Source: Candidatus Poribacteria bacterium
Lineage (GTDB): Bacteria; Poribacteria; WGA-4E; WGA-3G
Length of the DNA stretch: 64,000 nt
Reading direction: 5' to 3'
NCBI GenBank assembly: GCA_958295815.1
Contig: OY282374.1
Coordinates: 1,694,856-1,758,855, forward strand
This document shows positions 1-63,414 of this stretch, in pieces. Numbering within the stretch: position 1 is the stretch's first letter; every line of letters starts with the position of its first letter. Made by a program: the position numbers and the translations under genes. The notes beneath the pieces are model-generated. The model did not search any database. It was not told the DNA's origin and worked only from the letters and a program-made list of their open reading frames with translations.

Positions 1-860
1 GTGTCTACGAGAACATGGCGTTCCCACTGCATCCGAGAAAACTTTCCGCTGAGGAAATTGACCGACGCGTCAGGGATATCGCACAGATGCTCCATATTGA
101 GCACCTACTCATGCGGACACCGAATCAATTGAGCGGCGGTGAAACGCAACGTGTTGGTCTCGGAAGGGCAATGGTTCGCCGTCCCCAAGTCTTCCTCATG
201 GATGAACCGATCTCCAACCTTGACGCGAAACTCCGAACCGAAATGCGCGCCGAAATCCGTTGGCGACAACGCGACCTCGGCACAACCACTTTCTATGTCA
301 CGCACGATCAGGTGGAAGCAATGTCGATGGCGGATCGGATCGCCGTTCTGGAGGCAGGCAAAATCCAGCAGTTAGGAACACCCGCTGACATCTATAACCA
401 CCCCAAAAATCTCTTTGTCGCTGGCTTTGTCGGCAATCCGAGCATGAACTGCATCCCGTCCGACATCTCCAGATCCAACGGCGAACTCCACTTGACTTTA
501 GCGAGCGAAGTTGGTAGTGATAATTCGGTAACAATCCAAAGTGATGGGATTGCGAAAGTCCTAAATGACACTGATCCAGACCGAGATGTCGTCTTCGGTG
601 CGCATCCTGAAGATGTTGTGGTCAGTCATCAATCCATTCCGAACGCATTTCAGGCTGAAGTCTATAGTGTTGAGCCACTTGGCGCGGAAACAATAGTCGA
701 GTTGACACTCGGTACGGATGCAGAGGGCGCACATACAATCCTTAAGGCATGCACAGCACCCAATTTTGAAGCCGAAATCGGAGAACATCTGTACGTCACA
801 TTCGTTGATGACCGAATGCATTTTTTCGATAAAACGACTGGCGAAGCGTTGAAAATATAA
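1..860 (+). CDS. ABC transporter ATP-binding protein, MalK/UgpC type (5' truncated by window)
   Basis: ATPase subunit of an ABC importer, probably for sugars or polyols, working at the inner face of the cytoplasmic membrane. The open frame runs in from before the window, so the Walker A part is missing. Visible are the ABC signature LSGGE, the Walker B stretch VFLMDEP, the switch histidine in VTHDQVEA, and a C-terminal OB-fold (TOBE-like) regulatory region of about 130 residues. The order of motifs and the spacer 'VYENMAFPL' match the UgpC/MalK/MsmX group, which often serves several binding-protein/permease pairs. A full-length paralogue lies at 45360-46478. No permease or binding protein is visible next to it here. 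The family call is secure; the substrate cannot be told. Confidence 0.9.
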   Translation, partial: VYENMAFPLHPRKLSAEEIDRRVRDIAQMLHIEHLLMRTPNQLSGGETQRVGLGRAMVRRPQVFLMDEPISNLDAKLRTEMRAEIRWRQRDLGTTTFYVTHDQVEAMSMADRIAVLEAGKIQQLGTPADIYNHPKNLFVAGFVGNPSMNCIPSDISRSNGELHLTLASEVGSDNSVTIQSDGIAKVLNDTDPDRDVVFGAHPEDVVVSHQSIPNAFQAEVYSVEPLGAETIVELTLGTDAEGAHTILKACTAPNFEAEIGEHLYVTFVDDRMHFFDKTTGEALKI

Positions 861-51510: not shown

Positions 51511-51652
51511 GATTCCACATCCTGATTCCCAACTCATAACTCATAACTCACAATCCTTGTGGGAGGGGTTTGTAACCTCGACTCTTTCTGACCACTGATT
51601 GCTGACTGCTATTTGTGGGAGGGGTTTGTAACCTCGACTCTTCCTGACTGCT

Positions 51653-51864
51653 GACGGCACACGGAGTGTGCCTACTACTTTGTCTCCCCGATTCTTTCTG
51701 ACGGCACACGGAGTGTGTCTGCTACTTTGTAACCCCCGATTCTTGCTGACGGCACACGGAGTGTGTCTGCTACTTTGTAACCCCCGATTCTTGCTGACGG
51801 CACACGGAGTGTGCCTGCTACTTTGCATTATTATACGGCACACGGAGTGTGCCTACTACTTTGT
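51653..51864. repeat. five-copy GGCACACGGAGTGTGCC hairpin array
   Basis: Five copies of GACGGCACACGGAGTGTGYCT with RCTACTTTG behind it, starting at 51653, 51700, 51748, 51796 and 51834. GGCACAC-GGA-GTGTGCC is a perfect 7-bp hairpin in copies 1, 4 and 5. The spacers (17-20 bases, CCCCGATTCTT type) are nearly the same, so this is not a CRISPR. Two GGGAGGGGTTTGTAACC units precede it at about 51558 and 51614. It fills the gap before the convergent nucleotidyltransferase gene. Confidence 0.9.
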
Positions 51865-51878
51865 CCGCCGATTCTTTT

Positions 51879-53282: not shown

Positions 53283-54514
<1,232 letters not shown>

Positions 54515-54518
54515 TAAT

Positions 54519-54651
54519 CAGGACTTACGCAAATTAGCACGGAATGATAGATTATTTTCTTTATAAACCCCCTAACAAATCAACGGTATGAATGCCGTAT
54601 GGCATTCACCGCCCCTTATCAGGGGGACTTATGAACGCGCTGCGTAAGTGC
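54519..54651. mobile_element. MITE-like element with 7-bp target duplication
   Basis: A 133-base non-coding element with terminal inverted repeats GGACTTACGCA (left) and TGCGTAAGTGC (right), nine bases perfect (ACTTACGCA/TGCGTAAGT). It is flanked by TAGTAAT on both sides (54512-54518 and 54652-54658). Inside are hairpins GAATGCCGTATGGCATTC and CCCCTTATCAGGGG. The left target copy is made partly of the last bases of the 12-bp array, so the element went into the edge of module copy 1. No transposase is encoded here. Confidence 0.75.
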
Positions 54652-54663
54652 TAGTAATAAAAT

Positions 54664-54692
54664 TTGCATTTATCTGCGTTATGTTATATACT
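54664..54692 (+). promoter_or_regulatory. putative promoter of the 310-residue unknown gene
   Basis: TTGCAT and TATACT with a 17-base spacer, 70 bases before the ATG at 54762. Confidence 0.5.
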
Positions 54693-54696
54693 TTAT

Positions 54697-54725
54697 ATAG
54701 TATAAACTATTTTTGTTTATACTAT
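54697..54725. promoter_or_regulatory. 11-bp inverted repeat operator or hairpin
   Basis: ATAGTATAAAC and GTTTATACTAT are perfect complements with a 7-base spacer. They begin 5 bases after the predicted -10, over the expected transcription start. This suits an operator for a dimeric repressor or a 5'-end hairpin of the message. Confidence 0.6.
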
Positions 54726-54761
54726 GATGAATATCCTATTTTATGAGAAGGAAGATTAGTA

Positions 54762-55694
54762 ATGCAGACAATGAAAGCACAAGTTTCTCCGCAAGACCTG
54801 CTGAGTGATGAGGCTTTGACGAAAATGACCATTGAGTACGGACCGAGTGTAAAAGAGTTAGCCGAGATGTTCAGTGGGTATGAATATATTGATGAAATGA
54901 TCAAGCATGCCGGGCAATATGCCGCTCAACAATTAGGGCATCCCATTGGACTCAATTTAAATGAAGTGGATTCACATACGCTTGAGACAATTCGAGCCGT
55001 AACCAGTGGGATATTACAGAGATTAGTTCCAGGTTTTATATCCGACACACATCGTGAGTTTTTTGTCCGTTGTCACGCACGTGGGCTCTCTACCTCCGAG
55101 GCATTTATGGAGTTGATACCCGAAGATAAGACTATACAACGTTTTATACAGCACGATGCCGTAGGTCTCGGACCACTCAAAAGTATGTTGGTAACCCGAT
55201 TGGCATATCTCAAACCCGGTTCAACCCGATGGCCCGAAAAGAAATACGGCGCAATCTGGCGGGACGAACGGGAACGCCATAAAAAAGAGGTAGATGACAT
55301 TCCATTCACTTCTCGAACCGAGCAGGCTGCACTGTTAGCCAAGCATGCCGGACGTCTTGACGGTCTATTAGAGCATAATGAGCACTCCGCTGCTGATTGG
55401 CAGTTATTGACGAATTCCCTCGTTAAAACGCTGGAGAGTTTACGAAAAGTGTCAACGGTTGAGCAACAGGAACCTACCCATCTATCTGGGACGCAGCTTA
55501 TTGGTGTCTTAGAACGGTTAACCCTTGCCTTAGATGCGCCTGAGCAACTCGCACCGGGTACTGACACTGACGCACTTGTTGGCGTGCTTGAACGATTAAC
55601 GCTTGCACTGAAATCTCCGAGCCACGAGGTGGTTGCAGACCAAGTTAAAGCCATTCCCGCAAATACCAATGCCGATGACGGCAGTTCAGTGTAA
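54762..55694 (+). CDS. unknown protein between inverted repeat modules
   Basis: A 310-residue soluble protein with no recognised family. Most of it should be helical. Residues 100-180 hold CHARGLSTSEAFMELIPEDK and WPEKKYGAIWRDERERHKKE, a charged segment that could bind nucleic acid. Two near-identical 17-residue helices, LIGVLERLTLALDAPEQ (246-262) and LVGVLERLTLALKSPSH (272-288), lie 26 residues apart near the Asp/Asn-rich C-terminus. GAAGGAAGA precedes the start. It has its own promoter and operator-like palindrome and is enclosed by modules 1 and 2. It may be linked to the repeats, but this is inference. Confidence 0.75.
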   Translation: MQTMKAQVSPQDLLSDEALTKMTIEYGPSVKELAEMFSGYEYIDEMIKHAGQYAAQQLGHPIGLNLNEVDSHTLETIRAVTSGILQRLVPGFISDTHREFFVRCHARGLSTSEAFMELIPEDKTIQRFIQHDAVGLGPLKSMLVTRLAYLKPGSTRWPEKKYGAIWRDERERHKKEVDDIPFTSRTEQAALLAKHAGRLDGLLEHNEHSAADWQLLTNSLVKTLESLRKVSTVEQQEPTHLSGTQLIGVLERLTLALDAPEQLAPGTDTDALVGVLERLTLALKSPSHEVVADQVKAIPANTNADDGSSV

Positions 55695-55727
55695 GCAGTT
55701 CTGTTCGACTGAGGTATATTTGCTACT

Positions 55728-55785
55728 GGCGAGGTTATCAGATTAAGCAATTATATTGTATCTATCTGTGATATAATGCCTCGCC
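55728..55785. repeat. GGCGAGG-class hairpin repeat
   Basis: GGCGAGG (55728-55734) and CCTCGCC (55779-55785) enclose 44 bases. It follows the unknown gene and precedes module copy 2. Confidence 0.6.
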
Positions 55786-55872
55786 ATTCCATTGATACTA
55801 TGAATCCTCTAAACCCTGATTCAACATGCAGTTTGAGGTGCGAAATAAGACACTTTTACAGCACATTCTATG

Positions 55873-56244
55873 GCGCGTTCTGTGGCGCGTTCTATAGCGC
55901 GTTCTATGGCGCGTTCTGTAGCGCGTTCTGTAGCGCGTTCTATAGCGCGTTCTATAGCGCGTTCTATGGCGCGTTCTATAGCGCGTTCTATGGCGCGTTC
56001 TATGGCGCGTTCTGTAGCACTTTCACCGTAAAAAATACTGAAGCTGACTGCCCATCGAAAAAACACAACCCACAATCACTGTGAAAATTTCATAGCAAAT
56101 TTCATAGCACTCCTCACACTAACCCTACCCAAAAACACCAAAAAACCCAGTTGTCATCTGTGTTAACGGTCTCTCTCCAAATCCCACACATTTCCTATGC
56201 TGCTATGAAAACTATGAAATTAGCTACCCACCAATCCTCCCTTA
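55873..56244 (+). repeat. repeat module copy 2 (12-unit 12-bp array plus conserved block)
   Basis: 55873-56016 is twelve units of GCGCGTTCTRTR with only the last bases varying (ATA, ATG, GTA, GTG). The conserved block to about 56244 follows: AGCACTTTCACCGTAAAAAA, AATTTCATAGCAAATTTCAT, GTTAACGGTCTCTCTCCAAA, GCTATGAAAACTATGAAATT and CCCACCAATCCTCCC. Frames read from the array (ERAI repeats) have no other support as protein. Confidence 0.9.
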
Positions 56245-56292
56245 AAATGCACTTTCTTCTATCACCAACCACGACCACTAACCGCGATTACT

Positions 56293-56336
56293 TTATCCTG
56301 AGAATCCTTGAATCCTGAAAATCCTGGTTCTGACAA
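56293..56336. repeat. AATCCTTGAATCCTGAAAATCC dispersed element
   Basis: A member of the GATTCAGACA family (here ending GGTTCTGACAA). It is followed near 56357-56385 by GAATGCCACACGGCATTCATACCGTTGATTT, which is nearly the reverse complement of the centre of the MITE-like element at 54519. The 1007-base gap from 55695 to 56701 has no gene. Confidence 0.65.
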
Positions 56337-56442
56337 TCCCTTACTGACCGCTGACTCGGGGAATGCCACACGGCATTCATACCGTTGATTTTGATAGCTG
56401 ACCACCATTCCTCCCACAACCCATAACCCTAAGATATTTTAC

Positions 56443-56701: not shown

Positions 56702-58447
56702 ATGGCAAATTACCAAGAACTGGCAAATTTCGTTTGGAATGTGGCAGATGATGTTCTCAGAGGACTCTTCAAACCGCACGAATACGGCGACATTACCCTC
56801 CCGTTTCTGGTGCTCCGCCGATTGGACTGCATCTTAGATGAGGACGGACGAAAAGAGAAAGCCATTGATACCTACAATCAATACGACGGCAAAGTAGATG
56901 AAGACCTAATACCACCGATTATTCTGAGAGAGACAAACACCAGTTTCTATAACACCTCCCAGTACGACCTATCCCGACTGAAAGCCGACCCGAATAATAT
57001 CCGTCTCAACTTTGAGAACTACCTCAACGGGTTCAGTAAGGACGTGCGCGACATCATCGAAAACTTCAATCTCGGAGGGTTTATTGATCGACTCGACAAT
57101 AACAATCGATTGTACATCTTCTGCGATAAGTTCACCGAAATCGATCTACACCCCGATAAGGTGGACAACCATACGATGGGACAGGTCTTTGAGGAGCTGC
57201 TCCGCCGATTCTCAGAGATGTCCAATGAGACCAGTGGGGAACACTACACGCCGCGGGATGTCGTACGGCTATTGGTCTCACTACTATTTGCGGAACACCG
57301 TGAAGATCTGAGTGGACAGGGGATTATACGCAGTATTTTCGATCCGTGCTGCGGGACGGGTGGTATGTTGACGATTGGGAAAAACTACTTTCGCGAACAG
57401 ATTAATCCGGATGCCAATATTCGGCTGTTAGGTCAGGAACTTAACGCACAGACCTACGCAATTTGTAAGTCGGATATGCTTATCACCGAAGAGGACCCCG
57501 ACAATATTCGACATGGATCGAGTCTCTCCAATGACCAATTTCAAGGGGAGCGTTTCGATTATATGATTACAAATCCGCCCTTCGGTGTCAGTTGGAAGTC
57601 TGATGAGGCGGCGGTGAAAACAGAAGGGCAGAATGCTTACGGCAGATTCTCTGCTGGCACACCTCGCACCTCAGATGGTGCTCTACTGTTTCTGCAACAC
57701 ATGCTCTCCAAGATGGAGGACCGTGGGAGTCGGGTTGGCATTGTCTTTAACGGGGCACCGCTCTTTACAGGCGATGCCGGTAGCGGTGAGAGTGAAATCC
57801 GACGCTGGATTATCGAGAACGACTGGCTGGAATGTATTATTGCGCTGCCCGATAAGCTGTTCTTCAACACCAGTATCGCCACCTATATTTGGATTTTAAC
57901 AAATCGGAAATCAGAGGCGAGACAAGGTAAGATACAACTCATCAATACTGTTGATTTCTTTGATAAGATGAAAAGAAATCTCGGGGATAAGAGTGTTTTC
58001 ATTTCCGATAGCCATATTCGTCACATCACTGAACTGCATACTAACTTTGAAGAGACTGAGTACTGCAAAATCTATCCAAACGATTTTTTCGGCTACACGA
58101 AAGTGACGGTTGAGAGACCACTCATCGAAAAGCGTGAGATTCTGGGAGAGGAAAAGGAAGTCGTTGTCAGAGACAAGAGGGGTAATCCCAAACCGGATAC
58201 CAAGTTGCGAGGCACTGAGCGCGTTCCCATCACAGAGAACATTGATGATTACTACCAACGAGAGGTGAAACCGCACCTACCGGATAGTTGGATAGATAGG
58301 AAGAAGGATAAGGTGGGCTACGAAATTAATTTCAATCGATATTTCTACCAATACACACCGCTACGCTCACTGAAGGAGATCGCCGATGAAATACTTGCAC
58401 TTGAGGGGAAAAGTGAAGGCTTGCTGAATGAGGTGTTAGGGTTATGA
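56702..58447 (+). CDS. hsdM: type I restriction-modification system methyltransferase subunit
   Basis: A 581-residue N6-adenine DNA methyltransferase. The N-terminal HsdM helical domain (1-150) is followed by the AdoMet motif DPCCGTGG (214-221) and the catalytic NPPF (291-294). The C-terminal coil (LKEIADEILALEGKSEGLLN) contacts HsdS. GAAGGAAG precedes the ATG. It overlaps hsdS by 4 bases (ATGA). With HsdS it methylates the host target, and with HsdR it cuts unmodified DNA. Confidence 0.96.
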   Translation: MANYQELANFVWNVADDVLRGLFKPHEYGDITLPFLVLRRLDCILDEDGRKEKAIDTYNQYDGKVDEDLIPPIILRETNTSFYNTSQYDLSRLKADPNNIRLNFENYLNGFSKDVRDIIENFNLGGFIDRLDNNNRLYIFCDKFTEIDLHPDKVDNHTMGQVFEELLRRFSEMSNETSGEHYTPRDVVRLLVSLLFAEHREDLSGQGIIRSIFDPCCGTGGMLTIGKNYFREQINPDANIRLLGQELNAQTYAICKSDMLITEEDPDNIRHGSSLSNDQFQGERFDYMITNPPFGVSWKSDEAAVKTEGQNAYGRFSAGTPRTSDGALLFLQHMLSKMEDRGSRVGIVFNGAPLFTGDAGSGESEIRRWIIENDWLECIIALPDKLFFNTSIATYIWILTNRKSEARQGKIQLINTVDFFDKMKRNLGDKSVFISDSHIRHITELHTNFEETEYCKIYPNDFFGYTKVTVERPLIEKREILGEEKEVVVRDKRGNPKPDTKLRGTERVPITENIDDYYQREVKPHLPDSWIDRKKDKVGYEINFNRYFYQYTPLRSLKEIADEILALEGKSEGLLNEVLGL

Positions 58448-59724
58448 GGCGTTATCCTGAATATAAATACAGCCCACTAGGTTGGGTAGGTGAGATTCCT
58501 AAACATTGGGAGATGAAACGTGCTAAGTTCATTTTTCGGCGGCTGCAACGCCCTATTCGGGAAAATGATGAAATCATAACTGCTTTCAGAGACGGTATTG
58601 TAACTCTTCGTAAAAATCGTCGTACACTCGGATTCACAAACTCGCTCAAAGAAATTGGCTATCAAGGTATCCGAAAGGACGACCTGATTATTCATGCTAT
58701 GGATGGCCATGCGGGGGCAATAGGTGTGTCTGACTCCGATGGCAAATCCTCGCCTGTTTATTCTGTCTGTCGTCCAATCTCACAAGAAAACGTCTACTAT
58801 TATGCATACCTTCTTCGATATATAGCTTTAAGTGGTTTTATTGAGTCTCTTGCGAGAGGTATTCGTGAAAGGTCAACGGAATTTCGTTTCAATGAATTCA
58901 AAGAACTTGATTTACTGATTCCAACTGTTTCTGAACAAGCCCAAATCGCCAACTTCCTTGACCGCAAAACCGAACAGATTGACGAGCTCATCCGCATCAA
59001 AGAACGACGGATAGAACTGCTGCAGGAACAACGCACCGCACTGATAAATCAGGCAGTGACGAAGGGGCTTGACCCGAATGTGGAGATGAAACCGTCGGGG
59101 GTAGAGTGGATTGGGGATATACCGGGGCATTGGGAGGTAATTAAGTTTCATTACCTCTCGCAAGAATCTAAAAGAAAAAATGATGATGATATTGACCGGG
59201 AGATGCTCTCTCTATCCAGTTATACAGGAATTAATGTTAAGCAATATGAATATGAAAACATTAAAAGAAGCAAGGAAGAAAGTTTGACCTATCTCGTTGT
59301 TGAACCGAACCAACTTGTGGTGAACCCAATGTGGCAAATTCAAAGAGGCATTGGTGTGTCTTATCTTCATGGGATTGTCAGTCCTGGCTATAGAGTCTAT
59401 TACATAGATTTGGAAAGATTAATTCCTCAGTATCTTCACTATTTAATGAGGAGTGATATCTATGTAGATGAGTATAATAAGCATATCAGAGGTCTAACAA
59501 CATACGATAGGTCGGTCAAGAAAGAGGATTTCGAGGCAATTCCCGTTCTACTCCCTACTAAACAGGAACAAACTCAAATTACCAACTTTCTTGATCACAA
59601 AACCGAACAGATTGACGAACTGATAGCAACAGAGCAGCGAAAAATTGAACTCCTCAAGGAATACCGTCAATCCCTCATCTCCGAAGCGGTGACCGGCAAG
59701 ATTGATGTCCGAAATGAGGTTTAG
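58444..59724 (+). CDS. hsdS: type I restriction-modification system specificity subunit
   Basis: A 426-residue subunit with two target-recognition domains. Each is opened by a similar segment (GWVGEIPKHWEMKRAKF; VEWIGDIPGHWEVIKFHYLS) and closed by a conserved helix (IANFLDRKTEQIDELIRIKE near 172; ITNFLDHKTEQIDELIATEQ near 380). The repeat-helix layout is typical and defines a bipartite target. Both domains are intact. The hsdR start follows the stop by 3 bases. Confidence 0.95.
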   Translation: MRRYPEYKYSPLGWVGEIPKHWEMKRAKFIFRRLQRPIRENDEIITAFRDGIVTLRKNRRTLGFTNSLKEIGYQGIRKDDLIIHAMDGHAGAIGVSDSDGKSSPVYSVCRPISQENVYYYAYLLRYIALSGFIESLARGIRERSTEFRFNEFKELDLLIPTVSEQAQIANFLDRKTEQIDELIRIKERRIELLQEQRTALINQAVTKGLDPNVEMKPSGVEWIGDIPGHWEVIKFHYLSQESKRKNDDDIDREMLSLSSYTGINVKQYEYENIKRSKEESLTYLVVEPNQLVVNPMWQIQRGIGVSYLHGIVSPGYRVYYIDLERLIPQYLHYLMRSDIYVDEYNKHIRGLTTYDRSVKKEDFEAIPVLLPTKQEQTQITNFLDHKTEQIDELIATEQRKIELLKEYRQSLISEAVTGKIDVRNEV

Positions 59725-59727
59725 TCC

Positions 59728-62679
59728 ATGCAGACGTATCGGGAAATAAATTTTGAAGATCACATCGAACAACGCCTGAATCAGTCGGACTACCATTCGT
59801 TACAACCTACTGACTATGATAAATCCCTCTGCCTAATACCCGATGAGGTTGGACAGTTTATCCGGGCAACCCAACCCAAGACGTATCAGAGACTGGAAAG
59901 ACAATACGGCGCGGACACACCGCAGAAACTCACGCTCCGTATCAGCAATCAGGTTGCGAGTCGAGGTGTGTTGGATGTGTTGCGGAAAGGTGTTAGGGAT
60001 AGGGGTAGTCATTTTCATCTGACCTACTTCCAACCCTCAAGTGGTATGAACCCCGACCATCAACGGCTCTACGCTAAGAACCGATTCTCACTGGTTCGGC
60101 AGCTCAGGTATTCAGAGCGGAACGAAAAATCGCTCGATATGGTGTTGTTCCTCAATGGTCTGCCGTTGGTCACAATGGAACTGAAAAACAGTCTCACCGG
60201 TCAGGTAGTCACGGATGCGGAGAAACAGTATCGGACAGATCGGGATCCGAGGGAGCCGTTATTCCAATTCAGGCGGTGCTTGGTTCACTTTGCGGTGGGC
60301 AACGAGAAGGTTTCAATGACAACCCACTTACAGGGAGGTAAAACACGCTTCTTTCCGTTTAACAAGGGTATCGAAAATCCTGTGAACCCGAAAGGGCACA
60401 AAACCGCTTATCTGTGGGAGGACATCCTACACCCCGATAACCTGCTGGAGTTAATCAACAACTTTATCCATGAGCAGGAGACCACAGAAAAGGTTTACGA
60501 TCACAGAATTGATGCGGTGAGAGATGAGAAGCACCGCGTGCTCGTTTTCCCGCGATACCATCAGCTTGATGTGATTCGTGAATTGCAAGCCGCTGTCGTG
60601 GAAGATGGGGTTGGAAACAACTACCTAATCCAACACACCACAGGGAGCGGCAAATCGAATTCCATCGCATGGTTAGCGCACCTACTAACGCATCTGTACC
60701 GCGCTCAGACCGATACAAATCGGATCTTCGACTCCGTCATCGTCGTGACCGATCGGCGCGTCCTTGACAAGCAGCTGCAGGAGACGATTAAACAGGTGGA
60801 ACAGGTTGACGGCGTGGTGCATTCCGTTGATAAGACTTCAGCACAACTCAGGGATTTCCTCGAATCCGGCAAAGACATTATCATCTCAACGATTCAGAAG
60901 TTCAGCGTGATTGCCGAGGAGATCGGCAAACTCAAAAGCAAGACCTTCGCCGTGATTATTGACGAGGCACACTCCTCGCAAAGTGGTGAGTCGGCAAGGA
61001 GCCTCAGAACTTCGCTCTCGAAAGGCGTTGAGGGAGGTGTAGAAGAAGATGACGCCGACGAAGTATCGGATATAGACGCTCGGATTATTGAGGAGATGGA
61101 ACAGCGTAGAATGCAGGAGCATATCTCCTATTTCGGTTTTAGCGGTACACCAAAGAACAAGACTTTAGAACTGTTTGGACGGAAGGACGAAGAAGGGAAA
61201 TTTGTCCCGTTCCATACCTATTCGATGCGCCAGAGTATCAGCGAAGGGTTTACACTGGACGTGCTCCAGAACTATACCACCTTTAAGAGGTATTTTGAAC
61301 TGGTCAAAAGTGTGCCAGAGGATGAAGAGTACGAGAAGGCGCGGACGCTCAGGACACTGACCAATTACGTTGACCTGCAACCCCACAGTATTGAGACCAA
61401 GACCCGGATTATCCTCGAACACTTCACCACGCGGACGGCAAAAACGATCGAAGGGAAAGGACGAGCGATGTTAATCACGCCGTCACGACTGCACTGCGTC
61501 AGATACAAGCAAGAGTTTGATCAGCAGATGCGGGAGATGGGACTTTCCTACGGGTGTCTGGTAGCGTTCAGCAGCACGGTGCACGACACAGACAATGGTA
61601 AGGATTACACGGAAGACGGGATGAATGCGTTACCGCCGAGCGTTTCGATTGCGGACAGTTTTAAGAGTCCTGAGTATCGGATTCTGATTGTGTCGAATAA
61701 GTTCCAGACGGGTTTCGATGAGCCGATGCTACAGACGATGTACGTCGACAAGCGATTAGACGGGTTGCAATGTGTTCAGAGTTTGAGTCGCCTGAACCGT
61801 GTTGCCGCCGGTAAGACGGATACGTTGGTACTCGACTTTGTGAATGAACCCGATCAGGTCCAAGAAGCGTTTCAGCAATACTATCAGACCACAACGCTCG
61901 CCGAGGAGACCGACCCGAATCGGTTGTATGACCTACAGAGCCAGTTGGAGGGTTATGACCTATACGATGCGGATAAGATTGGACGTTTTTGTGAAATCTT
62001 TTATGATCCAAATCAACCGGATGAGTTGTTACAGGGTGTTCTTGATAGCGTCGTTGAGCGATGGTTGGCACTTGAAACAGAGGACAGGGAGGAGTTTCGT
62101 TCTACCTTACAGAGTTACATTCGTCTCTACGGATACATCTCACAGTTGATTACCTTCACAGATGTAGATTTGGAAAAGTTGTATGTCTTCGGTCGCAGTT
62201 TGAACAAGAAGTTGCCGAAACGAGAGCACCCCGACCTGCACGATGTGCTGGCATCCGTAGATTTGGATTCGTTTCGTGTACAGAGAACCCATGAGGAGTT
62301 ACAACTCTCTCTTGAAGCGGAAGATAGCGAGGTTGAAGGGATTGGCAGCGGTGTTGGTATACTTAGGGAGCAGGAACAGGATTTCCTTTCTAATATCATT
62401 AACGCCCTGAACGATGCTTATCAGACGGATTTCACAATGGAAGATAAGGTTGACATTGAGACCATTCACCGAAAAGTGAGCGAGAATGAAGAGCTTCGGC
62501 AGGTGATTGAAGGCGATAATACGGAGACCAACAAACGGTATAAGTTTGATCAGGTGGTTGAAGAGATTTTATTCGGTTTCGTCAATAGTAAGTTGGATCT
62601 CTTCAATAAATTATCGAAACCGGAAGTCAAGGCGGATCTCAAGCGTCAGCTTTATCGGGCATATCTTGGGCAAGCTTAA
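59728..62679 (+). CDS. hsdR: type I restriction-modification system restriction subunit
   Basis: A 983-residue motor-nuclease. The PD-(D/E)XK nuclease site is near D137, E151 and K153 (VTMELKN). The translocase has Walker A TGSGKSN (305-311), DEAH 412-415 and further helicase motifs, including FSGTPKN and QTGFDEPMLQTMYVDK. It ends with a helical region that binds HsdM. All three hsd genes are intact, so the system looks functional. Confidence 0.95.
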   Translation: MQTYREINFEDHIEQRLNQSDYHSLQPTDYDKSLCLIPDEVGQFIRATQPKTYQRLERQYGADTPQKLTLRISNQVASRGVLDVLRKGVRDRGSHFHLTYFQPSSGMNPDHQRLYAKNRFSLVRQLRYSERNEKSLDMVLFLNGLPLVTMELKNSLTGQVVTDAEKQYRTDRDPREPLFQFRRCLVHFAVGNEKVSMTTHLQGGKTRFFPFNKGIENPVNPKGHKTAYLWEDILHPDNLLELINNFIHEQETTEKVYDHRIDAVRDEKHRVLVFPRYHQLDVIRELQAAVVEDGVGNNYLIQHTTGSGKSNSIAWLAHLLTHLYRAQTDTNRIFDSVIVVTDRRVLDKQLQETIKQVEQVDGVVHSVDKTSAQLRDFLESGKDIIISTIQKFSVIAEEIGKLKSKTFAVIIDEAHSSQSGESARSLRTSLSKGVEGGVEEDDADEVSDIDARIIEEMEQRRMQEHISYFGFSGTPKNKTLELFGRKDEEGKFVPFHTYSMRQSISEGFTLDVLQNYTTFKRYFELVKSVPEDEEYEKARTLRTLTNYVDLQPHSIETKTRIILEHFTTRTAKTIEGKGRAMLITPSRLHCVRYKQEFDQQMREMGLSYGCLVAFSSTVHDTDNGKDYTEDGMNALPPSVSIADSFKSPEYRILIVSNKFQTGFDEPMLQTMYVDKRLDGLQCVQSLSRLNRVAAGKTDTLVLDFVNEPDQVQEAFQQYYQTTTLAEETDPNRLYDLQSQLEGYDLYDADKIGRFCEIFYDPNQPDELLQGVLDSVVERWLALETEDREEFRSTLQSYIRLYGYISQLITFTDVDLEKLYVFGRSLNKKLPKREHPDLHDVLASVDLDSFRVQRTHEELQLSLEAEDSEVEGIGSGVGILREQEQDFLSNIINALNDAYQTDFTMEDKVDIETIHRKVSENEELRQVIEGDNTETNKRYKFDQVVEEILFGFVNSKLDLFNKLSKPEVKADLKRQLYRAYLGQA

Positions 62680-62952: not shown

Positions 62953-63063
62953 ATCTGTGAAATCTGTGTAATCTGAGGTTCAGACTTTAGCACTCTTCCC
63001 AACATCCAACCAGACATCCTCCCATCAGATAAAAAAATAAAATAATATTTGCATTTATCTATA

Positions 63064-63414
63064 GCGCGTTCTATAGCGCGTTCTATAGCGCGTTCTATAG
63101 CGCGTTCTATAGCGCGTTCTATAGCATTATCTGTAGCACTTTCACCGTAAAAAAATACTGAAGCTGACTGTCCATCGAAAAAATACAACCCACAACCACT
63201 ATGAAAATTTCATAGCAAATTTCATAGCACTCCTCACACTAACCCTACCCAAAACCGCCAAAAACCCCAGTTGTCACCTGTGTTAACAGTCTCTCTCCAA
63301 ATTTCACACATTTCCTATTCTGCTATGAAAACTATGAAATTAGCTACCCACCAATCCTCCCTAACTAACCCCCTAATTCTACCAACTCGCATCCCATAAC
63401 CCACAACTCACACA
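63064..63414 (+). repeat. repeat module copy 3 (5-unit 12-bp array plus conserved block)
   Basis: Five perfect GCGCGTTCTATA units (63064-63123) and a decayed sixth (GCATTATCTGTA) are followed by the conserved block. TTTCATAGCAAATTTCATAG at about 63208 and TGCTATGAAAACTATGAAA at 63321 can pair as a stem about 100 bases apart. The block runs to CCTCCCTAACTAACC and CCATAACCCACAACTCACAC. The 833-base gap from 62680 to 63512 has no gene. Confidence 0.88.

Follow-up and report, generated by a model that had tools for sequence, protein, structure and literature searches.

A solitary small-terminase-like gene and its candidate cognate inverted repeat element in variable islands of Poribacteria

A 64,000-nucleotide stretch of the genome of a Candidatus Poribacteria bacterium (called the window; the genome is a single contig of 5.13 Mb) contains a gene for a 310-residue protein that lies by itself between inverted repeat modules and next to a type I restriction-modification (R-M) system. 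Based on sequence comparisons, we favour on balance the reading that this gene encodes a solitary DNA-binding protein of the small terminase type (TerS; DUF2280-type), which would recognise a cognate inverted repeat element. The protein family is, as far as these comparisons reach, fast-evolving and restricted to Poribacteria, and the gene is, judged from synteny and the gene tree, inserted repeatedly and independently at variable, defence-rich sites.

The core element came to light through its DNA, in a search of 58 genomes. It was present in 12 of these and lay directly behind a family gene in G034, G040, G041 and G046 (G and L numbers are our handles for genomes and loci), though the search did not target genes. 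The element consists of at least two TTTCANAG units at a spacing of 9-12 bp, a spacer of ~90-100 bp, which often holds an AACCC..GGGTT hairpin, and then the units inverted. The unit consensus TTTCA[T/G/C]AG is realised as TTTCATAG in the lineage of the window and as TTTCAGAG or TTTCACAG in other lineages. Most family genes have the element alongside within tens to ~200 bp, namely downstream of the promoter but ahead of the start codon in lineages 2 and 3, behind the gene in lineage 1 and on both sides in the window. At least three motif octamers within 600 bp were found at 17 of 42 family genes as compared to 1 of 141 control genes (p 1e-11); the motif was derived from part of the 42 genes, and the unused loci L124, L126 and L127, which belong to other families of the order, all pass.

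The variable base of the unit is T, G or C depending on the lineage and uniform per locus, with a pair identity of 0.73 (0.39 when shuffled), or of 0.81 (0.34 when shuffled) if one locus per lineage is taken. The observed uniformity was attained in 0 of 10,000 shuffles under either sampling. That direct and inverted copies change in concert would be expected of a binding site tracking its protein. A comparison of helix-turn-helix (HTH) residues with the repeat base yielded no clean rule. At the level of genomes, an element type tends to be found where the corresponding lineage of the gene is present (p 1.3e-4, 2e-5 and 7e-4), whereas for the other lineages p is at least 0.09. Dispersed copies of the lineage 1 element are sharply bounded units of ~130 bp, and the copy number of the element ranges from 0 to 15 among related genomes. 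A reading of the element as RNA was dropped as unsupported by Rfam, which returned zero relevant matches; the arm pairs of lineage 1 hardly vary, so covariation speaks neither for nor against an RNA structure.

The second line of evidence concerns the protein. The window protein has zero matches in Pfam, NCBIfam, PDB sequences and PHROGs, and direct annotation by these routes or by Foldseek against the PDB gave nothing usable. To this extent the first-pass annotation, which could name no known family, was right, but comparison of profiles uncovered a remote DUF2280/TerS homology. In a profile search within the phylum, the profile of the gene's own family (A1) reaches shorter relatives of ~210-270 residues from the same phylum (A2), and hhalign aligned A1 with A2 at a probability of 97.8 and an E-value of 7e-13, spanning the HTH and the linker. 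The A2 member L119 passes the Pfam cut-off for DUF2280 (PF10045; 27.2 vs 24 bits), and three members of the family itself match DUF2280 at an E-value of 0.042 at best. Another A2 member, L116, is encoded directly upstream of a gene resembling that of the large terminase (TerL; phrog_38, 1.7e-5), and A2 matches a Salinibacter phage protein in TerS position (E 1e-12), whose next gene encodes TerL-like Walker A/B motifs. The relatives recovered among phage TerS are very remote (E 1e-10 to 1e-4). A DUF2280 gene immediately upstream of the large terminase gene is likewise listed in a table of an A. baumannii prophage (PMC7760358).

The AlphaFold model of the window protein is all-helical with a pLDDT (predicted local distance difference test) of ~88 in the core. 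Its best viral match in Foldseek, a weak one, is a 240-residue protein of Fusobacterium phage Fnu1 (probability 0.99, E 0.068), from its length apparently the product of gene 13 of that phage (240 residues), which directly precedes a gene for a Walker-motif protein. TerS has been described as an HTH followed by a helical hairpin and a variable C-terminus (PMC9611059). Because of this fold layout, the homology between A1 and A2 and the positions of the phage relatives, we read the window protein as a TerS-like, DNA-binding protein with an N-terminal extension that falls short of membership in TerS proper.

Solitary DUF2280-like proteins of ~250 residues that are encoded in chromosomes form another set (L111-L115 and L118-L120), with secA as a neighbour of L111 and oxidoreductase genes as neighbours of L118. 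Upstream of the genes of these distant relatives, at L111-L115 and L118, stand inverted arms of different sequence (ATGAACAT; AAATGTTAC), with tandem units within the arms in L112-L114; the plan of a TerS-like gene with inverted arms thus recurs with other motifs. L116 and L117 lie on a phage-like contig of 80 kb (G056:C3) in a Poribacteria assembly, with an identical stretch near both ends.

Several results weigh against the TerS-like reading or against the pairing with the element. Foldseek of the predicted structure against the PDB returned zero TerS, and the window protein gave no direct profile match to PF10045 or to a small-terminase subunit in PHROGs. No large-terminase gene was recognised beside the window gene or its homologues, a TerL neighbour having been seen solely for the phage relatives, L116 and the Salinibacter phage. 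Two TerL profiles (phrog_38, above noise, and PF03237) match nothing in the window genome. With 310 residues, the protein is about double the size of an ordinary TerS (15-21 kDa; PMC9611059). The TTTCANAG element is absent or unrecognised at about one third of the family genes (L075, L076, L078-L081, L087-L090, the G021 copies, L097, L099, L100 and L125). Finally, two of the three genome-level associations depend on gene-linked copies, decisively so for lineage 2: with unlinked copies alone, the association is strong for lineage 1, marginal for lineage 3 and not significant for lineage 2.

At E 0.1, the family has matches in 37 of the 59 genomes that belong to the same taxonomic family, and a profile search at E 0.001 gave matches in 40 of 85 genomes of the phylum, all within one order and with up to 6 matches per genome. 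The relatives share 20-57% identity with the window protein. A scan of one genome per species (84,980 species) returned 26 family relatives, every one from Poribacteria (Candidatus or uncultured), several of which are the same contigs as relatives already used in the analysis; phage and IMG/VR searches returned no relatives of family members. Most of the compared genomes are fragmented metagenome assemblies. Conservation is strongest in ITD.HREFIVR.HARGLST..AV..L..ED, followed by RL.YLKPG..RWPEKKYGA.WRE.RE. The paired 17-residue helices near the C-terminus that had been noticed earlier were recovered: 12 of 17 residues are identical, 9 of them consecutively, and the resulting 26-residue repeat is present family-wide, with three copies in L125. 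In most close pairs of family genes dN/dS is 0.18-0.48, indicating that the protein is maintained under purifying selection; the four nearly identical copies in G021 are too similar for a dN/dS verdict.

The features of the window are collected in Table 1. Re-examination confirmed the open reading frame with its strand and length, the inverted modules with 12-bp arrays on both sides of the gene and the perfect inverted repeat at the transcription start. The flanking module has about a dozen copies in the window genome, and the two-sided, array-bearing arrangement was found in the window alone. Two-sided flanking inverted repeats were rejected as a family-wide trait, as they showed no excess over control genes. 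The earlier proposal that homologues be checked for the module was answered with a modified yes: most homologues have the core element beside them, but not the 12-bp array or the two-sided layout. A third copy of element and array lies past hsdR, joined directly to a promoter-like AATATTTGCATTTATCT at ~63047 (stretch from 63041). Because of this gene-like promoter and the slot, which is used by the L061 lineage, the third copy is probably the remnant of a second cassette.

The -35/-10 pair of the window gene is by itself not above chance. The pair has, though, been conserved in front of divergent homologues that lie elsewhere (L061, L062, L065, L066, L067, L069 and L081), and we therefore consider the promoter real; the earlier claim that the gene has its own promoter thus stands on this conservation and not on the -35/-10 score. 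An 11-bp perfect arm such as that of the palindrome just past the -10 box was attained in 2 of 500 dinucleotide shuffles. The palindrome was ruled out as the operator of a regulon, since it occurs once in the genome and therefore allows self-regulation at most. Two further repeats were observed in the window: a small separate repeat AAATCAACGGTATGAATGCCGNNNGGCATTC at 54577-54611 and 56357-56391, the whole or parts of which recur in L067, L081 and L095, and a 48-bp tandem repeat (TGCTGACGGCACACGGAGTGTGCC..) at 51649-51876, downstream of a glmU-like gene.

Table 1. Features of the window and of the encoded protein (nucleotide positions refer to the window, residues to the 310-residue protein).
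Feature	Position	Strand	Remarks
Solitary TerS-like (DUF2280-like) gene	54762..55694	+	310 aa; open reading frame confirmed
N-terminal helical extension	residues 16-92
HTH core	residues ~93-128
Conserved region	residues 149-166		YLKPG..RWPEKKYG..W
Helical hairpin	residues ~185-233
C-terminal amphipathic repeats	residues 246-262; 272-288		LIGVLERLTLALDAPEQ; LVGVLERLTLALKSPSH
Promoter	54663..54692	+	TTTGCA-18-TATACT; shared with homologues at other genomic sites
Perfect palindrome, candidate operator	54697..54725	.	ATAGTATAAAC-N7-GTTTATACTAT; just past -10
Left repeat element	54232..54374	+	two-armed, spacer ~95 bp
Arms of left element	54234, 54243; 54345, 54357		TTTCATAG x2; inverted arm CTATGAAA x2
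Left 12-bp tandem array	54433..54514	+	CGCGCTAYAGGA, 6.6 copies; joined to left element
Right 12-bp tandem array	55866..56018	-	unit CGCGCTATAGAA on - strand, 12.8 copies; joined to right element
Right repeat element	56081..56221	-	inverted copy of left; TTTCATAG 56088, 56100; CTATGAAA 56203, 56212
Third element and array copy	63059..63410	-	past hsdR, slot of L061-lineage gene
Type I R-M operon hsdM, hsdS, hsdR	56702..62679	+	genus-conserved locus, outside cassette
Whole insertion	54147..56437	.	relative to empty bioD-hsdM region of G042, G054; boundaries ~+/-20 bp

The neighbouring R-M system, which had been recognised before and whose hsdM, hsdS and hsdR genes follow the gene, belongs to a locus conserved in the genus (glmU-bioD, hsdM-hsdS-hsdR and two more genes). 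Family genes occupy different slots of this locus. The window and G053 have theirs in the bioD-hsdM gap, and in G052 and G035 the gene adjoins bioD; G040, G046 and G057 have it past hsdR, ahead of the conserved gene that follows, and in G034 it lies at the same far end. Gene fragments are kept near bioD in G028, G045 and G057, and in the tree the bioD-side genes derive from at least three separate lineages. Empty sites exist in G042 (L166) and G054 (L164), where the bioD-hsdM gap is just ~80-175 bp, and the insertion in the window was delimited by comparison with them; it measures ~2.3 kb with one gene inside, and no clear target duplication was seen around it. In G021 there are four nearly identical copies of the gene, two of them as 1.59-kb units with identical ends, which have terminal inverted repeats (GGGTGTGTAAAGTT..TTGGCAC) and 9-bp target duplications (GCATAGATT, CAGATAAAT) and contain no transposase. 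We take the ends of these units to be IS256-like, and because they differ from the TTTCANAG element, the units were probably mobilised in trans by a foreign, IS256-like transposase. A complete 309-bp element resembling a miniature inverted-repeat transposable element (MITE), with the same IS256-like terminal repeats, was observed beside a G021 gene copy (L095, 6559-6867).

Several family genes outside the hsd locus also lie close to defence genes, i.e. a type IIG R-M gene (L066), a Dsr1-like SIR2 gene (L127), Cas10d (L128) and genes for a ThsB-like TIR protein (L070) and a DpdF-like helicase (L087). At a threshold of 1e-8, PADLOC models gave 186 matches for 111 near neighbours, 77 for 87 distal proteins and 13 for 108 proteins of 20 random loci, counts which are inflated by redundant models and island structure. 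Counted by site, the enrichment is suggestive at most. Given the redundant models and the rich distal genes, we read these numbers as location in variable islands and not as proof of function. The question whether homologues lie in defence islands, raised by the first-pass annotation, thus receives a qualified answer, with more matches than at random loci but an excess by site that is at best suggestive. Its description of the gene as mobile or defence-linked agrees with the insertion and its empty sites, the turnover of lineages and the defence neighbours, although these findings fall short of showing that it acts in defence itself. The likeness to TerS and the resemblance of the repeats to cognate sites of the protein had not been anticipated there.

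We envisage an oligomer of the protein that would bind the element, several of its HTH units contacting the arms along their length; bound in the gene's own leader or flank, it would regulate the gene. Gene and element together would make up a cassette subject to gain, loss and movement in defence-rich variable islands. Once an infecting phage supplies a large terminase, this module resembling terS and pac may act by redirecting or jamming packaging. As a speculation from homology and setting, a role depending on phage TerL is the likeliest wider one. In phage P1, pac contains two clusters of short repeats ~100 bp apart. The pac site of P22 is located within its TerS gene (PMC9611059), and it is this location of the recognition site, within or next to the gene for TerS, on which the analogy is based. 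A more specific proposal, which we put forward tentatively and think unlikely, is a minimal packaging parasite or transfer device, in which one TerS-like gene, its pac-like element and further such elements spread over the chromosome would borrow the large terminase and capsid of infecting phages, so that element-adjacent host DNA, including defence islands, would be packaged and transferred.

The likelihoods that we attach to the competing explanations overlap, because self-regulation, mobility and packaging interference are not mutually exclusive. The most serious rival, less probable than a TerS-like protein with a cognate element yet credible, is an ordinary autoregulated HTH transcription factor, for which the dispersed elements would be a regulon or stray operators and the likeness to TerS no more than a common fold left by an ancient domestication and unconnected with packaging. 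Such a factor would explain why the element stands between promoter and start codon in several lineages, and it agrees with the purifying selection, the intergenic position of the dispersed copies (as far as seen) and the failure of both TerL profiles in the genome. It accounts less well for the strongly varying number of element copies, and the independent gain and loss of lineages at the same slots near defence genes fits a selfish or phage-related gene better.

We judge it unlikely that the elements form a non-autonomous mobile family of the REPIN (repetitive extragenic palindromes forming hairpins) or MITE type with the gene as mobilising or maintaining partner, as REP-associated tyrosine transposases (RAYTs) are for REPINs. 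Short inverted dispersed elements with sharp boundaries, a linked gene of lineage-matched sequence and the G021 units with their target duplications are what such a family would show, but searches of family libraries gave the protein no transposase or nuclease signature, its conserved residues are those in common with the TerS-like relatives, the G021 ends are not those of the TTTCANAG element and the window insertion lacks a visible target duplication. Somewhat more doubtful still is an anti-phage decoy, i.e. a solitary TerS-like protein which would co-assemble with the TerS of an infecting phage or compete with it, so that packaging stalls. The recurrent siting beside R-M and other defence genes would suit it, and there is a precedent in the Rpp proteins of phage-inducible chromosomal islands (PICIs), which bind phage TerS and block phage DNA packaging (PMC6739421); against it stand the great distance of the phage TerS relatives, a target phage that is not known and the cognate elements, which a pure decoy leaves unexplained. 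That gene and modules are unrelated, the modules being ordinary interspersed repeats that flank the gene by chance, is highly improbable, since, despite the array-bearing arrangement being confined to the window and modules occurring in genomes without a detected gene (e.g. G055 and G037), it is already contradicted by the elements close to most homologues, including those in other families of the order.

Recognition of pac by TerS is hard to study, as sequence-specific binding is weak in classical phages (PMC9611059). For the TerS-like protein and its candidate element, dozens of natural protein-repeat pairs, in which one base shifts by lineage with the protein, provide a data set on how small terminases read DNA. 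Should the cassette indeed redirect packaging, it would rank with the smallest phage satellites known and would offer defence islands a way to move.

As in REPIN-RAYT systems (PMC3116915, PMC8049555), dispersed inverted repeats are found here together with a linked, lineage-matched gene. Unlike a RAYT, the gene encodes no tyrosine transposase and no Y1/HUH domain, the arms are multi-copy short direct repeats, and the matches listed in Pfam, NCBIfam and PHROGs for 34 members include no transposase family. With PICIs that encode a TerS or Rpp of their own (PMC6092414, PMC6739421), the cassette shares a packaging-specificity gene without a motor in a mobile setting; in contrast to them, it has no integrase, replication or capsid-remodelling genes and comprises one gene in 1.6-2.3 kb. 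With TerS (DUF2280/PF10045, phrog_1459) the protein shares the HTH core, then the FP-KY-W/F-R-Y region and the helical hairpin; the phage relatives lie directly upstream of a large terminase gene, and the candidate recognition site in or near its own gene has a parallel in the pac site of P22. Unlike TerS, a gene of the window type is solitary in a bacterial chromosome with no adjacent large terminase gene and no direct family-profile match, the window protein is extended by a helical domain at the N-terminus and by amphipathic repeats at the C-terminus, and copies of the candidate cognate element are dispersed over the chromosome. To our knowledge, a TerS-like gene paired with its own dispersed short repeats has not been described previously. 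That the system is categorically new is plausible but unproven; we describe it as a variant of TerS-pac with REPIN-like repeats.
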